This document shows positions 7,733 through 21,282 of a DNA stretch of 64,000 nucleotides, piece by piece; position 1 is the first letter of the stretch, and each line of letters opens with the position of its first letter. The notes beneath the pieces are model-generated. The model was not told where the DNA came from. It saw only the letters and a list, made by a program, of their open reading frames with translations, and did no database searches. The position numbers were made by a program, and so were the translations under genes. Source of the stretch: Paenibacillus sp. GM2 (GTDB lineage Bacteria > Bacillota > Bacilli > Paenibacillales > Paenibacillaceae); the NCBI RefSeq assembly GCF_900069005.2, contig NZ_LN831279.1:1253796-1317795 (forward strand). Direction: 5' to 3'.

Positions 7733-9835
7733 ATGGAAAAGCATGTGAAGATGGAGTTGGGAGGAAGACCTCTTACATTGGAGACCGGGCGTCTGGCCAA
7801 GCAGGCTAACGCTGCGGTAATGGTCCGGTATGGGGATACAGCTGTGCTGTGTACTGTTACAGCATCTGCGGAACCTAAGGACCTGGATTTTTTCCCATTG
7901 ACCGTGAACTATGAAGAGAAGTTGTACGCTGTAGGTAAAATTCCTGGCGGCTTTATCAAGCGCGAAGGACGCCCTAGCGAGAAAGCCATTCTTGCAAGCC
8001 GGTTGACCGACCGCCCGATCCGCCCGCTGTTCCCAGAAGGGTTCCGCAATGATGTACAGATCGTGAATCTGGTTATGAGTGTGGACCAGGACTGTGAGCC
8101 TGAAATTGCTGCAATGATCGGTACTTCGGCCGCACTGAGCATATCGGATGTGCCTTTTAATGGACCGATTGGCGGCGTTGCTGTAGGACGTGTAAATGGC
8201 GAATTCGTCATTAACCCGAATATTGCTCAGCAAGAAGCAAGCGATATCTATGTTGTTGTCTCCGGCACCAAAGATGCAATCATGATGGTTGAAGCCGAAG
8301 CTAATGAGGTTCCGGAAGAAGTGATGCTGGAAGCGATTATGTTCGGACATGATGAGATCAAGAAGATCATCGCCGTTATTGAAGAGCTGGTTGCTGTTGC
8401 AGGCAAAGAAAAAATGGAAGTGAAGCTGCACGCTGTTAATGCTGAGGTAAATAGCGAGGTTCGCGCTTATGCTTCCGAGCGTTTGGTTGCAGCGGTTAAG
8501 ATTGCGGAGAAGCATGCCCGTCAGGATGCGATCGATGCGATCAATGATGAGACGGTCGCTTATTTTGAGGAGAAGTACATAGAATCTCCTGAGTTATTGG
8601 ATGATGTGAAGGAAGTGCTGCATGACATCGTCAAAGAAGAAGTGCGCCGCTTAATCACTCACGATAAAGTTCGTCCGGACGGACGCAAATTAAATGAGAT
8701 TCGTCCGATCGAATGCGACATCAATTTGCTGCCGCGTACCCATGGCTCTGGTCTGTTCACTCGTGGTCAGACGCAAGCGCTTAGCATTTGTACGCTTGGA
8801 GCATTGGGCGATGTACAAATCCTCGACGGCATCGACCTTGAGGAATCAAAGCGATTCATGCATCATTACAACTTCCCGCCATTTAGTGTGGGCGAGGCTC
8901 GTCCTCTGCGCGCACCAGGCCGTCGTGAAATTGGGCATGGCGCATTGGGTGAACGGGCGCTGTCAAAGGTTATTCCGCCAGAATCGGAATTCCCTTACAC
9001 GATTCGCCTTGTATCTGAAGTTTTGGAATCGAACGGCTCTACTTCACAAGCGAGCATCTGTGCCAGCACACTGGCTATGATGGATGCTGGTGTTCCGATC
9101 AAAGCGCCTGTTGCCGGTGTAGCTATGGGCTTGATCAAGGACGGAGAGCATGTATCGATCCTAACAGATATTCAAGGGATGGAAGATCATCTCGGCGATA
9201 TGGACTTCAAGGTAGCAGGTACAGCAGAAGGCGTAACCGCGATTCAAATGGATATCAAGATCGACGGAATCGATCGTCAAATTTTGTCCGAAGCCTTGGA
9301 GCAAGCAAAAGAAGGCCGTATGTTCATCCTGGGCAAAATGCAGGAACGCATCCATGCTCCGAAGGAGCATTTGTCTCCGTATGCCCCTAAGATTACAATC
9401 ATGAACATTAATCCGGACAAAATCCGCGATGTTATCGGTGCTGGTGGCAAGATCATTAACAAGATCATTGAGGAAACCGGCGTTAAGATTGATATTGAGC
9501 AGGATGGACGAGTCTTCATCGCTTCAACCGATGAAGAGATGAATAACAAAGCACGCTCAATTATCGAAGGCATCGTTAAGGAAGTTGTCGTTGGCGAGAT
9601 TTACGTAGGTACGGTTAAACGGATTGAGAAATTCGGCGCCTTCGTTGAAATCCTGCCGGGCAAGGACGGATTAGTGCACATCTCCCAGCTTTCAACGGAA
9701 CGTGTTGCAAAAGTAGAGGATGTCATTGCGATCGGGGACACAATTACTGTTAAAGTAACCGAGATTGATCAACAGGGACGTGTTAACCTTTCCCGTAAAG
9801 CGGTATTAACCGCGGAGGAAAAATCACACTCTTAA
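7733..9835 (+). CDS. pnp: Polyribonucleotide nucleotidyltransferase (PNPase)
   Basis: Phosphate-dependent 3'-5' exoribonuclease of mRNA decay. The 700 residues show two RNase PH-like halves (the second with [16 protein letters not shown] and the active-site region [20 protein letters not shown]), a KH domain around residue 571 ([15 protein letters not shown]) and a C-terminal S1 domain ([18 protein letters not shown]). The ATG follows AAGGAGG. A TATAAT hexamer at 7623-7628, just after the second hairpin of the rpsO region, may belong to its promoter, though no clear -35 is visible. Confidence 0.98.
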
Positions 9836-13770: not shown

Positions 13771-14041
13771 TAAATTTAACCTCTGACAGCACAATAGAAA
13801 AAATGCTGTACACGGTTCCGTATTTGTGAAGTTCATCAATCGGTACATTACTTCTAAAACAACAAAAGCCCTGCCTCTCTTTCGTCCTTGCGGCTCCGAA
13901 GACCGCTCCAGCGTGAATCAGAAAATTTCAAACGTTCCGTAAACTAGAAACTCTTACTTTGTAGGGTTATCAAATAGGAATTTTCTTCACTTCTAGATGG
14001 GTTAATTAGAAAACTTAGAGGAACTTACGAGGTTAAATTTA
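13771..14041. repeat. Intergenic segment bounded by 13-bp inverted repeats
   Basis: TAAATTTAACCTC at 13771-13783 and its exact reverse complement GAGGTTAAATTTA at 14029-14041 enclose about 245 bp of non-coding sequence. No transposase or target-site duplication is visible. The rest of this 620 bp gap before ylxY, to 14172, holds no gene that I can support. Confidence 0.45.
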
Positions 14042-17211: not shown

Positions 17212-18111
17212 ATGCTGACCGGTCTTACAATTGTGTTCCTGGGTGGAGATGCCAGGCAGATCGAAGTCATTAATAAGTGCATTGAACTGGATGCCTCAGT
17301 TCGTCTGGTTGGCTTCGACAAGTTGGAAAATCCGCCATCCGGAGTGAGGCATGAAGCATTGTCTTCTGTTTTGCTGCAAGAGGCGGATATTATCGTCATG
17401 CCGGTGATTGGCTGCGATGACAATGGAATTATCGCTGCGCCGTTCGGAAGCGGAGATCTGGTGATGAAGCAGGAGCTGTTCATGGCCATACGGGAGGGAG
17501 GCCTGGTCTACACGGGCATGGCCAAGAGTTTGCTGCGACGGATGAGCAGCGAGTATGGTTTCCGGCTCATCGAACTCCTTGATCGTGATGATGTGGCGAT
17601 ATACAATTCGATTCCGACGGCAGAGGGAGCCCTTATGATGGCAATTCAGAATACTGATATTACCATTCACGGCTCGACCTGTGTCGTGCTTGGAATTGGG
17701 AGAACAGGCTTCACTCTGGCGAAGACTTTGCAGGGATTAGGAGCGAAAATCAGGGTAGGTGTCCGCAGGGAGGCGGATGCTGCGAGAGCGGCCGTTATGG
17801 GCTGGGAGCCTTTTATGACAAGGGATTTGACCGCTTGCACCAGCGATATTGACTTGATTTTTAATACAATACCGACTATGATAATCACAGCGCAAATCAT
17901 ATCGAAATTGCCCAGAAGAACGGTAATTATCGACCTTGCCTCAGCTCCTGGCGGAACGGATTTCCGCTTCGCCGAGAAGCGTGGAATCAAAGCGCTCCTT
18001 GCTCCCGGATTACCTGGAATCGTAGCTCCTAAAACGGCTGGAATTATTATAGCGAACACATTGTGTCAGTCGATTACGGAAGAGTTCCATTTACGGGGGG
18101 ATGAAGAGTGA
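17212..18111 (+). CDS. dpaA: Dipicolinate synthase subunit A
   Basis: Together with DpaB it turns dihydrodipicolinate, or its precursor from DapA, into dipicolinic acid in the mother cell during sporulation. The 299-residue protein has an N-terminal domain followed by a Rossmann NAD(P)-binding domain with VLGIGRTGFTLAKTLQGLGA at about 160-180, as in SpoVFA. ATG 17212 lies 13 bases after GGAAGGAG, a slightly long spacing. It ends in a 4-bp overlap with dpaB. A dipicolinate operon is strong evidence of an endospore former. Confidence 0.95.
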   Translation: MLTGLTIVFLGGDARQIEVINKCIELDASVRLVGFDKLENPPSGVRHEALSSVLLQEADIIVMPVIGCDDNGIIAAPFGSGDLVMKQELFMAIREGGLVYTGMAKSLLRRMSSEYGFRLIELLDRDDVAIYNSIPTAEGALMMAIQNTDITIHGSTCVVLGIGRTGFTLAKTLQGLGAKIRVGVRREADAARAAVMGWEPFMTRDLTACTSDIDLIFNTIPTMIITAQIISKLPRRTVIIDLASAPGGTDFRFAEKRGIKALLAPGLPGIVAPKTAGIIIANTLCQSITEEFHLRGDEE

Positions 18112-18701
18112 ATTGGCAAGGTGTAACAGTAGGTTATGCGGTAACAGGCTCACATTGTACACTTGCTGAGGTGATGCCGCAAATCCAGCGTTTTGTGGAT
18201 GATGGTGCTAAAGTTGTTCCGATCATATCCCAATCGGTACTAACAACGGATACCCGTTTTGGCAAATCAGAGGATTGGCAGGAGCAGTTAAGAGATATTA
18301 CCGGGAATAATATCATTTCTACAATTGTCGAGGCCGAGCCGCTCGGACCTAAGAAATTGCTGGATATTATGGTTATAGCGCCTTGTACAGGAACTACGAC
18401 CAGTAAACTTGCGAATGCGGTAACAGACAGTCCTGTCCTGATGGCAGCAAAAGCGCAAATGCGCAATGGGCGTCCGCTAGTGGTCGCTATTTCAACGAAT
18501 GATGGTCTGGGGTTTAATCTGGCGAATATCGCCAAGCTTATCGTCGCGAAGAATATATACTTCGTTCCTTTCGGTCAGGATAATCCGGCAGAGAAGCCGA
18601 ATTCTCTGGTGGCACGGATGGAACTGGTTCCTGAGGCCTGCTTCGCGGCGCTTGAAGGTAAGCAATTGCAGCCGCTCATTGTAGAACGGTTCAATTCATA
18701 G
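18108..18701 (+). CDS. dpaB: Dipicolinate synthase subunit B
   Basis: A 197-residue flavoprotein-like subunit of dipicolinate synthase (SpoVFB). The flavodoxin-type fold is suggested by VGYAVTGSHCTLAEVMPQI at the start and MVIAPCTGTTTSKLANAVTD in the middle, similar to phosphopantothenoylcysteine decarboxylase-like flavoproteins. It starts with GTG in a GTGA overlap with dpaA. Downstream, where B. subtilis has asd, only a decayed remnant is found. Confidence 0.95.
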   Translation: MNWQGVTVGYAVTGSHCTLAEVMPQIQRFVDDGAKVVPIISQSVLTTDTRFGKSEDWQEQLRDITGNNIISTIVEAEPLGPKKLLDIMVIAPCTGTTTSKLANAVTDSPVLMAAKAQMRNGRPLVVAISTNDGLGFNLANIAKLIVAKNIYFVPFGQDNPAEKPNSLVARMELVPEACFAALEGKQLQPLIVERFNS

Positions 18702-18727
18702 GGGCATATGAAGGATTATTAACTTAG

Positions 18728-19054
18728 GTAACAGCAACCTGCGTGCGTATTCCGGTTGTTTATGGGCATTTTGAGGTCGGTCTATTGTCAAAGTTGGCAC
18801 GGGTCACGATCTGGATGAAGTGAGAAGCTTGCTGTCCGATGCACCGGGTGTGACGCTTGTTGACGATCCGGCAGTGCAGAGCTGGAGCTCTGGTTACGGA
18901 AACTGCCGTCAAGACGGAGGTGTTCATAGAGCGTCTGCGTCGTAATCTTGGCAATGCACGGGCGCTAAATTGTAGATTGTGTCCGATAATCTGCTGAAAA
19001 GGCGCAGCATGGAACGCTGTTTAAATTGCAGAGATTATTGCAGCTAATGGATAA
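18728..19054 (+). pseudogene. asd: asd remnant (aspartate-semialdehyde dehydrogenase), 3' third, frameshifted
   Basis: Pieces of the C-terminal third of Asd can be read in order on the plus strand by switching frame: TATCVRIPVVYGHFE from 18731, LLSDAPGVTLVDDPAVQ at about 18829-18879, KTEVFIERLRRNLGNARALN from 18911, IVSDNLLK at 18976-18999, and KGAAWNAV from 18998, then an in-frame TAA at 19022 where Gln is normal, and IAEIIAANG ending at a TAA at 19052. At least four frame changes and one internal stop are needed, and the first two thirds of the gene are absent. Position between dpaB and dapG is where asd lies in B. subtilis. DapA needs aspartate semialdehyde, so an intact asd is expected elsewhere in the genome. 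Confidence 0.88.
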
Positions 19055-19131: not shown

Positions 19132-20355
19132 ATGCGCATCTTAGTGCAAAAATTCGGTGGCACTTCTCTCTCCACTCCGGAGGCAAGAGATTACGTCATC
19201 TCACATATTCGCCGGGAGCTGGCTAACGGTTTCCGGCTCGTTGTGGTGGTGTCAGCAATGGGCCGCAAAGGCGACCCGTATGCAACAGACACGCTTCTTG
19301 ATCTTATTGCTGGCAGCGGGGGATCATTGGAGCCGCGGGAACAGGATCTGCTGTTAGCCTGTGGTGAAATGATCTCCGCTTCCATGCTTAGCAGCCTGCT
19401 AAATAGAGAGAATATCTCTTCTTCCGTATTAACGGGAGCGCAGGCGGGGTTCCGAACGGATAGCCATTATGGCAACGCCAGAATTCTCGATATTGTACCT
19501 ACCCGAGTGCTGGAGCAGTTGGAGCAGAAAGATGTTGTGATTGTAACCGGGTTCCAGGGGCAAAATCAGATCGGCGATTTTACGACGCTGGGACGCGGTG
19601 GAAGCGACACTTCGGCAACAGCGCTGGGTGCGGCGCTTCATGCTGAAATGGTCGATATTTATACGGATGTGAACGGCATCCTTACAGCAGACCCTAGAAT
19701 CGTAGAGGATGCAAGACAGCTTGACTATGTGAGTTATGCTGAAATATGCAATATGGCTCATCAAGGGGCTAAGGTCATTCATCCGCGGGCAGTTGAAATT
19801 GCCATGCAATCAGGTATACCTGTGCGCGTACGTTCCACTTTCTCGGAAAGCGAAGGAACGCTCGTTGCGAATCCGGAAGGGTTCAAGGATGTGCAACTTG
19901 GCATTCTGGACCGTTATGTTACCGGCATCGCCTATGTGAACAATGTGACACAGATCAAGGTTGATGCATCGGGTAGTAACAATAAGGAGTCCTTGCAGCT
20001 GCAAGTCTTCAAGACGATGGCAGAAAATTCAATCAGTGTCGATTTTATTAATGTTACCCCGTCAGGAGTCGTTTATACGGTATTTGACCATGATTCCGAT
20101 AAAGCGGTACAGGTATTGGAGCAGCACGGCTTGAAGCCGGATGTATTGACAGGCTGTGCCAAAGTATCGGTCATCGGCGGTGGAATCAATGGGGTTCCGG
20201 GAATTATGGCCAAAATCGTTGAAGCCTTAACGGAGCAAAAGGTACAGATTTTGCAATCTGCAGACTCCAATACGACGATTTGGGTGCTAGTTAATCAGGA
20301 TGATATGGTGGCGGCATTGCGGGCTTTGCATACCAAGTTTGAACTGGGCCGGTAG
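19132..20355 (+). CDS. dapG: Aspartokinase (DapG type)
   Basis: Phosphorylates aspartate, the first step toward lysine, diaminopimelate and dipicolinate. The 407-residue protein opens with the amino-acid kinase motif VQKFGGTSL, continues with GRGGSDTSATALGAAL and ends in two ACT regulatory domains (about 265-400; VIGGGINGVPGIMAKI). Length and position match DapG, the diaminopimelate-controlled isozyme of B. subtilis. ATG follows TTGGAGGA. It is followed after 63 bp by dapA. Confidence 0.94.
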   Translation: MRILVQKFGGTSLSTPEARDYVISHIRRELANGFRLVVVVSAMGRKGDPYATDTLLDLIAGSGGSLEPREQDLLLACGEMISASMLSSLLNRENISSSVLTGAQAGFRTDSHYGNARILDIVPTRVLEQLEQKDVVIVTGFQGQNQIGDFTTLGRGGSDTSATALGAALHAEMVDIYTDVNGILTADPRIVEDARQLDYVSYAEICNMAHQGAKVIHPRAVEIAMQSGIPVRVRSTFSESEGTLVANPEGFKDVQLGILDRYVTGIAYVNNVTQIKVDASGSNNKESLQLQVFKTMAENSISVDFINVTPSGVVYTVFDHDSDKAVQVLEQHGLKPDVLTGCAKVSVIGGGINGVPGIMAKIVEALTEQKVQILQSADSNTTIWVLVNQDDMVAALRALHTKFELGR

Positions 20356-20418: not shown

Positions 20419-21282
20419 ATGGATTTCGGTAGATTGATTACAGCGATGGTTACACCATTTGATGAACAGAATCGAATTCATTGGGGCGAGACAGCTCGTC
20501 TTATCGATTATCTAATTGAGGAACAGAAGTCCGACAGCCTGGTAGTATGCGGTACGACCGGCGAGTCTCCAACATTGACAGACGAGGAAAAGCTGGAGTT
20601 ATTTCGCTTTACAGTAGAACATGTGGCTGGCAGATGCAAAGTGATTGCGGGGACAGGAAGCAACAATACAGCCCACACTATTGAATTGTCCAAAGAAGCG
20701 GAGAAGCTGGGTGTAGATGGACTGCTGCTTGTAGCCCCATACTATAATAAGCCTTCCCAGGAAGGCTTATATCAACATTTCTCTGCAATTGCTAATTCGG
20801 TTTCATTACCAGCAGTACTGTATAATATCCCAGGTCGTACGGGGATAAGCATCAGTGCCGAGACCACCTTGAGATTAGCGCAAATCCCTAATATTGTTGC
20901 CACGAAGGAGTGTGCTCCCCTGGATCAGGTAGCCGAGATTGCCAGCGGCGCACCGGCCGGTTTCATAGTGTATTCCGGTGATGATGCGGCTGCGCTTCCG
21001 GCTCTGGCCGTAGGGGCCTATGGGGTTGTAAGTGTGGCAAGCCATATCGTGGGCAGCCCGATGAAGGAAATGATCACTGGCTTCCTGGCAGGTCAGGTAG
21101 AAGAAGCTGCAAAGCTGCATCAAAGACTGCTGCCTGTGTTTAAGGGATTGTTCGAATGCCCGAATCCGGTTGCTGTGAAGTACGCGCTTAATCTGCGCGG
21201 ATATTTGGTGGGTTCGGTGCGACTGCCGCTTATTCCTCCGACAGAGGCGGAAGCAGAGCGCATTCGCGAGTTGCTGAACTAG
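20419..21282 (+). CDS. dapA: 4-hydroxy-tetrahydrodipicolinate synthase
   Basis: Condenses pyruvate with aspartate semialdehyde. The 287-residue TIM-barrel shows CGTTGESPTLTDEEK, the conserved Tyr region PYYNKPSQEGLY, NIPGRTG and the Schiff-base Lys in VATKE. I chose ATG 20419, placed well behind GAGGGGAG at 20405-20412; the TTG at 20401 lies before that site. With dpaAB and dapG it forms the lysine/dipicolinate group. The product is the DpaAB substrate. Confidence 0.96.
   Translation: MDFGRLITAMVTPFDEQNRIHWGETARLIDYLIEEQKSDSLVVCGTTGESPTLTDEEKLELFRFTVEHVAGRCKVIAGTGSNNTAHTIELSKEAEKLGVDGLLLVAPYYNKPSQEGLYQHFSAIANSVSLPAVLYNIPGRTGISISAETTLRLAQIPNIVATKECAPLDQVAEIASGAPAGFIVYSGDDAAALPALAVGAYGVVSVASHIVGSPMKEMITGFLAGQVEEAAKLHQRLLPVFKGLFECPNPVAVKYALNLRGYLVGSVRLPLIPPTEAEAERIRELLN

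Follow-up and report, generated by a model that had tools for sequence, protein, structure and literature searches.

A decayed asd gene in the dipicolinate/dap operon of Paenibacillus sp. GM2 and its probable repeated displacement by an archaeal/fungal-type asd with a lysine T-box leader

The operon and the remnant within it

The window, that is, the whole stretch of DNA that was analysed, comprises 64,000 nucleotides of the genome of Paenibacillus sp. GM2 (G000; contig NZ_LN831279.1, positions 1,253,796 to 1,317,795). It includes an operon with the features listed below. The names dpaA, dpaB, dapG and dapA are those we take from a preliminary description of this DNA and from general knowledge of the families, rather than from a family search.

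17212..18111, + strand: dpaA (dipicolinate synthase subunit A), intact, upstream gene of the operon; open reading frame, tblastn match in 40 of 40 loci of the genus
18108..18701, + strand: dpaB (dipicolinate synthase subunit B), intact, ending 22 bp 5' of the remnant; open reading frame, tblastn
18724..19052, + strand: pseudogene remnant, last third of a bacterial-type asd (asd_B); DNA profile, TIGR01296, indels, shuffles
19132..20355, + strand: dapG (aspartokinase), intact, starting 79 bp 3' of the remnant; open reading frame, tblastn
20419..21282, + strand: dapA (4-hydroxy-tetrahydrodipicolinate synthase), intact, whose substrate is the Asd product; open reading frame, tblastn

The longest open frame between dpaB and dapG has at most 64 codons, and this stretch is confirmed to be what is left of a bacterial-type asd gene, its final third. 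A DNA profile built from the genus's 14 intact copies of asd_B matches it with nhmmer at 199.2 bits (E 8e-62) over profile positions 708-1033, so that about 707 of some 1035 nt are absent from the 5' side; the best score among 520 dinucleotide shuffles of the 26 dpaB-dapG gaps that lack an intact gene was -1.2 bits. An independent search with the TIGR01296 profile recovers the remnant at 33 bits (E 8.9e-8, model positions 233-338), with 5 stops in the stretch. Relative to asd_B of the nearest intact relative, G016, DNA identity is 66% over 343 sites and six indels change the frame. Its match to intact orthologues in the same syntenic position places the remnant in the TIGR01296 lineage. The preliminary description had placed here a decayed asd with ordered segments, the first two thirds gone, at least four frame changes and an internal stop, and all of this is borne out, as are its coordinates. 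The start of dapA, said to lie 1.4 kb downstream, is 1.37 kb from the end coordinate given there.

Neither a T-box nor a lysine riboswitch reaches its gathering score at the dap operon in the window. Elsewhere in the window, positions 13849-13936 (+ strand) match the BsrC small RNA family at 71.3 bits (gathering score 38), upstream of a gene that is presumably polysaccharide deacetylase-like.

A single intact asd of another branch

A search of the whole genome with TIGR01296 found no asd_B above cut-off, and a second copy of this type was therefore rejected as the source of Asd. One intact gene was found instead, belonging to the archaeal/fungal branch (asd_EA; TIGR00978) and located on the same contig about 1.2 Mb from the remnant (G000:C10:51886-52932). 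It scores 353.7 bits against a cut-off of 301.2 and covers positions 1-341 of 342, which is full length. Its best solved relatives are the Asd enzymes 3hsk, 5jw6 and 1ys4, with whole-length matches of 272.7 bits to 3hsk and 257.6 bits to 1ys4; the malonyl-CoA/succinyl-CoA reductase 4dpk is also a relative, at a lower 217.5 bits. The conserved Cys of its NCS motif, which we take to be the nucleophile, aligns with that of the solved Asd enzymes (C158, invariant in 9 of 9). On the strength of these matches, asd_EA is predicted to have aspartate-semialdehyde dehydrogenase activity. Another match to Semialdhyde_dhC in the genome (L002), with a score well short of the asd cut-offs and an argJ-like frame 0.2 kb downstream of it, was discarded as argC; both gene names are assumed from the sequence.

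The preliminary description had deduced that a second asd elsewhere took over. Such a gene exists and could do so, but it is of a different branch, stands behind a T-box with a lysine specifier and bears signs of horizontal gain in its tree and context. Members of the archaeal/fungal branch of aspartate-semialdehyde dehydrogenases keep the active-site groups and have low reported activity (PMC3276109). The likeness of asd_EA to them extends over the whole length, and it differs from those covered in the accessible part of that source in that a Gram-positive spore former has it as its sole Asd.

The T-box leader of asd_EA

Directly upstream of asd_EA, a T-box leader (RF00230) was detected at 99.2 bits, over the gathering score of 93. 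It is matched at positions 9405-9668 of locus sequence L063, preceded by a promoter-like match (9365-9393) and overlapped at its end by a terminator-like stem (9653-9692), both of these being consensus matches. The leader has a specifier codon, AAA (Lys), for which a shift of one base gives AAG, also Lys, and the terminator-like stem overlaps the antiterminator. By these features the leader would respond to uncharged tRNA-Lys. Control of the pathway by a lysine riboswitch was considered and rejected, the sole lysine riboswitch found in the genome preceding a permease-like gene.

Among all 27 asd_EA loci of the genus, 26 have a T-box over the gathering score upstream of the gene, and in all 26 leaders AAA stands before the conserved G, with one base fewer in front in G031. 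The exception is G034, upstream of which no T-box was found in a search up to E 1. A further 13 of the 23 loci L129-L151 were searched, of which eight pass the gathering score, and L144, one of those that fail, has the motifs. By motif, ten asd_EA rows from Paenibacillaceae have no T-box motif or specifier, so that not every asd_EA in the family has a T-box. No T-box was found in 20 asd_B loci (14 of the genus and six of 28 others) within the flank of about 1.5 kb searched at each, which would leave leaders further upstream out of view.

Distribution of the two genes

The loss is not peculiar to this genome, since native asd_B is missing from 26 of the 40 genomes of the genus. Thirteen have asd_B only, 26 have asd_EA only and one (G008) has both. 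Accordingly asd_B is over cut-off in 14 of the 40, and asd_EA is present in 27, of which 25 pass the cut-off and two, G028 and G031, have a frame that is split; the rows of the latter two are translations joined across the frame break and were omitted from the distance ratios and AU tests below. In all 40 genomes dpaB adjoins dapG, with a gap of 1168-1258 bp in the 14 asd_B genomes as opposed to 74-801 bp in the other 26 (the value for G031 being inflated by a cut dapG match). Clear asd remnants (E<1e-6) occupy this gap in 18 of the 26, and that of G026 is doubtful (E 0.01); in the remaining seven, the DNA profile search found no remnant in the gap.

Wider samples were drawn evenly from the larger groups. 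In the family sample (n=245), asd_EA occurs in 158 genomes and asd_B in 121 at E<=1e-60; counted by hand, 35 genomes contain both and one contains neither (G055, 89% complete). Two of the 35 co-resident asd_B genes contain a stop, G119 (where the gene is also shortened) and G245. In the class sample, asd_EA was found in 33 of 398 genomes, 30 of which are from the same family, and in the phylum sample in 24 of 348, five of which are from that family.

Outside the family, the closest asd_EA genes belong to Clostridia and to an unassigned Bacillota genome, at 72-81% identity, and to Bacillus niameyensis, at 83%. In B. niameyensis, asd_EA has a T-box and asd_B is retained; in G281, from another family of Bacilli, asd_EA has T-box motifs (by motif only) and asd_B is also present. 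This genome has two copies of asd_EA (G281:C58 and G281:C121). No T-box reached the gathering score in 17 of the 23 clostridial or unassigned loci, which were those searched, and none was found by motif in 42 asd_EA rows from non-Bacilli or unassigned genomes, two of which have short upstream DNA.

Age of the loss and mode of decay

A remnant with the identical 5' breakpoint (profile 706-707, nhmmer) is present in two other genomes of the genus, G011 and G031, and some of the frame breaks are common to all three. As the breakpoint is shared by three species, the loss predates their split. The preliminary description had proposed a comparison of the locus in related Paenibacillus genomes to date the loss and had supposed an operon in the course of losing one member; the comparison shows that the loss is old, the 5' deletion and some of the indels being common to the three species. 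Between G000 and G031, the remnants differ at 13, 14 and 19 sites at former codon positions 1, 2 and 3, respectively. In all four neighbouring genes, by contrast, this pair of genomes shows 18.8-38.7% difference at third positions and 1.9-8.7% at first and second ones. The spread in the remnant, based on small numbers, looks like decay without constraint, and the asd_B remnant thereby combines a disrupted frame with relaxed constraint.

Trees, neighbourhoods and spread of asd_EA

In a tree of eight flanking proteins, which has the weakness of resting on genes beside the lost asd_B, 31 of 37 inner branches are starred. On this tree, the presence of asd_B takes seven changes and that of asd_EA six, counts that cannot separate gain from loss; since asd_B is unlikely to have returned to its former slot, the pattern is read most simply as about seven losses.

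About seven gene neighbourhoods contain the asd_EA genes of the genus. When eight representatives with a T-box are compared, their DNA homology extends, counted from the start codon, from about -350 to -530 up to +1084 to +1090, with the stop codon at +1086; it is often interrupted between leader and gene and then falls into two pieces. These limits do not hold for the sister pair G000-G031, with homology to about +1305, or for the pair G010-G018, which has downstream genes in common. The gene of G034, which has no T-box, is homologous to the other representatives in the coding region only. In G004, G008 and G009, a malG that is 95-96% identical to the upstream neighbour of asd_EA in G000 is followed by unrelated DNA, the homology stopping a few bases past the malG stop. 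The maltodextrin-type permease beside asd_EA (L063:8478-9311; L303-L305) is closer than most flanking proteins of these three genomes, so that transfer between lineages may have affected this sugar cluster as well.

When asd_EA distances are divided by those of the flanking genes, G006 has low values (0.40-0.54, and 0.73 to G034), but low values also occur within groups in which vertical descent is expected (A7 0.51, B 0.54, C 0.15), which makes the ratio weak evidence, suggestive but not decisive. Many branches of the asd_EA tree are weakly supported.

Proposed explanation

These observations are most probably explained by horizontal gain of a self-contained unit that has repeatedly displaced an essential operon gene, the unit having the Lys T-box in 26 of 27 genomes of the genus. 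This explanation builds on what can be read from the sequences, namely the decay, the single intact replacement gene and its branch, the T-box and its specifier, the distribution, the differing contexts and the tree conflicts. The genome would have gained, at another chromosomal site, a transcription unit consisting of a promoter, a tRNA-Lys T-box leader with its terminator and an archaeal/fungal-type asd. The acquired unit would make the native asd of the dpaA-dpaB-asd-dapG-dapA operon dispensable, which would then lose its first two thirds and decay without constraint. From then on, lysine, cell-wall diaminopimelate, threonine/methionine and spore dipicolinate would all depend on the acquired enzyme, transcription of which would presumably increase in response to uncharged tRNA-Lys. 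Within the genus, such a displacement would have occurred about seven times, via several separate acquisitions. We infer that gain came before loss, because asd is essential and 35 genomes have both genes, and that the swap carries an advantage. The same 35 of 245 family genomes argue against a forced loss, asd_EA having been gained there alongside asd_B.

The preliminary description thus holds in so far as it saw that the asd here has decayed and that another exists elsewhere; it did not foresee the branch of the replacement, the loss is not ongoing as it assumed, and the event extends beyond the single genome it dealt with. A more far-reaching version can be entertained tentatively, in which the unit of about 1.5 kb (promoter, Lys T-box and asd_EA) would be a roaming replacement part in Paenibacillaceae, moving as one piece with its own sensing, suited to any site and repeatedly freeing the native asd, and in which the driver would be regulatory, moving asd out of the dipicolinate/dap operon and under control by tRNA-Lys charging.

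The main rival is a single entry of asd_EA into the ancestor of Paenibacillaceae, followed by coexistence, chromosomal moves and differential loss, with no transfer between species. The asd_EA genes of the family do form one group, into which B. niameyensis and G281 alone enter from outside (97% local support), and both genes coexist in 35 of the 245 genomes of the family sample; within the genus, G008, which has both, is sister to six genomes with asd_EA only, and the downstream neighbours F1/F2 are common to seven of the nine A9 genomes and all seven A7 genomes, groups that may descend from a single acquisition. An early gain that was later sorted accounts for part of the pattern, as the Paenibacillaceae genes lie close to one clade. 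As the whole explanation it is nonetheless unlikely, because AU tests reject a single clade of the genus asd_EA (p 0.0088; p 0.0225 without G034) in a set of 55 chosen rows of 141, including 17 of the 27 genus rows; rows L201, L202, L206 and L207 may be of the same GTDB genus too. The gene of G006, a genome that branches deep in the genus on the flanking-protein tree, falls in one group with those of P. agricola, P. aceris and Cohnella silvisoli (97/89), and the T-box-less gene of G034 groups with the equally T-box-less L244, L250 and L247; the gene with its T-box is moreover found in B. niameyensis and, by motif, in G281. Clade A9+E, supported at 100/100 by the flanking genes, is also rejected for asd_EA (p 0.0235), while G006 and G034 as one asd_EA clade are not (p 0.374). 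With the native gene lost and the asd_EA tree in conflict with the species tree, the displacement is of the xenologous kind, some of the tests not being significant.

Two other alternatives concern the remnant rather than the newcomer. Frame breaks are a common kind of assembly error, and G031 shows one in its asd_EA too, but an error in an intact asd, against which the preliminary description had advised a check, is extremely improbable: the gene lacks two thirds of its length, and the independent genomes G011 and G031 have the same remnant, with its 5' breakpoint and some of its breaks, which excludes a fault of the G000 assembly. That the remnant has been kept for a job other than coding, as a leader, spacer or promoter region of dapG, has slightly more in its favour, given that some of the final ~150 nt of the gene survives in every one of the 18 clear remnants and that 5' sequence is clearly kept in G004 only (G035 has a weak 9-bit match there). 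It is still very unlikely, as seven of 26 genomes have no remnant, the gap is as short as 74 bp, the three closest remnants differ at sites that spread over the former codon positions and no promoter-like match lies inside the remnant. The 3' end is thus kept far more often than the 5' end among the 18 remnants, few of which retain other parts of the gene. Common ancestry links some of these remnants, with several lineages being separate; no sign of a function of the kept 3' parts was found, and seven genomes manage without them.

Relation to known systems

Essential-gene displacement is usually inferred from patchy distribution. In this genus, a single syntenic slot shows every stage, from the native gene alone through the presence of both genes and a half-decayed native gene to a faint trace and finally nothing, which makes the order of events, the rate of decay and the role of the newcomer's regulator directly testable. 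Seven new cases of displacement in amino-acid pathways have been reported (PMC9026213), and the present one resembles such non-orthologous or xenologous displacements in that an essential step is taken by another protein while the usual gene is missing. It differs from those described in the accessible part of that report in that the corpse of the native gene still lies in the operon, the event recurs within one genus and the newcomer has an RNA regulator of its own.

Departure of asd from the operon of its own pathway is also known from clostridial lysine operons: in Clostridium cellulovorans asd has split off, and in C. botulinum dapB and asd have been deleted (PMC5584792). Unlike at the Paenibacillus locus, no remnant or replacing branch is described for them in the part of that source at hand. 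The same source reports horizontal transfer of a lysine riboswitch with lysP/gabP or lysX-lysY, a parallel in that gene and cis RNA regulator are transferred together; here, by contrast, the regulator would be a tRNA-Lys T-box and the gene replaces an essential native one.

Lys specifiers, with those for Glu and Gln, are the least common in TBDB (PMC7778990), and a Lys T-box precedes a lysine permease in Bacillus halodurans (PMC2494555). The asd_EA leader is like these Lys-specific T-boxes in its AAA specifier, antiterminator sequence and terminator, and unlike those presented in the accessible parts of both sources in controlling asd. A literature search whose scope lay outside the main T-box surveys returned nothing on control of asd by a Lys T-box, which may be in print.

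Asd has been discussed as an antibiotic target (PMC3276109), and close relatives here have Asd of two very different kinds. The spore dipicolinate operon has, in turn, lost its own Asd several times.

Records from phages and plasmids

Relatives of asd_EA with 65-72% identity occur in ten unannotated records of 'Bacteriophage sp.' from human faeces (MT835504, MT836426, MT836003 and seven others), which may reflect host DNA or true carriage. Seven plasmid records also have asd_EA relatives, one of them from Paenibacillus (897 kb). In the genome of P. cellulositrophicus KACC 16577, no asd_B is over cut-off and there is a single asd_EA cross-hit, at the plasmid-labelled locus; an essential gene, here the only Asd gene found and an asd_EA with a T-box (L218 / L339, NZ_CP045296.1:494284-495369), is located on a circular 897-kb replicon labelled plasmid.
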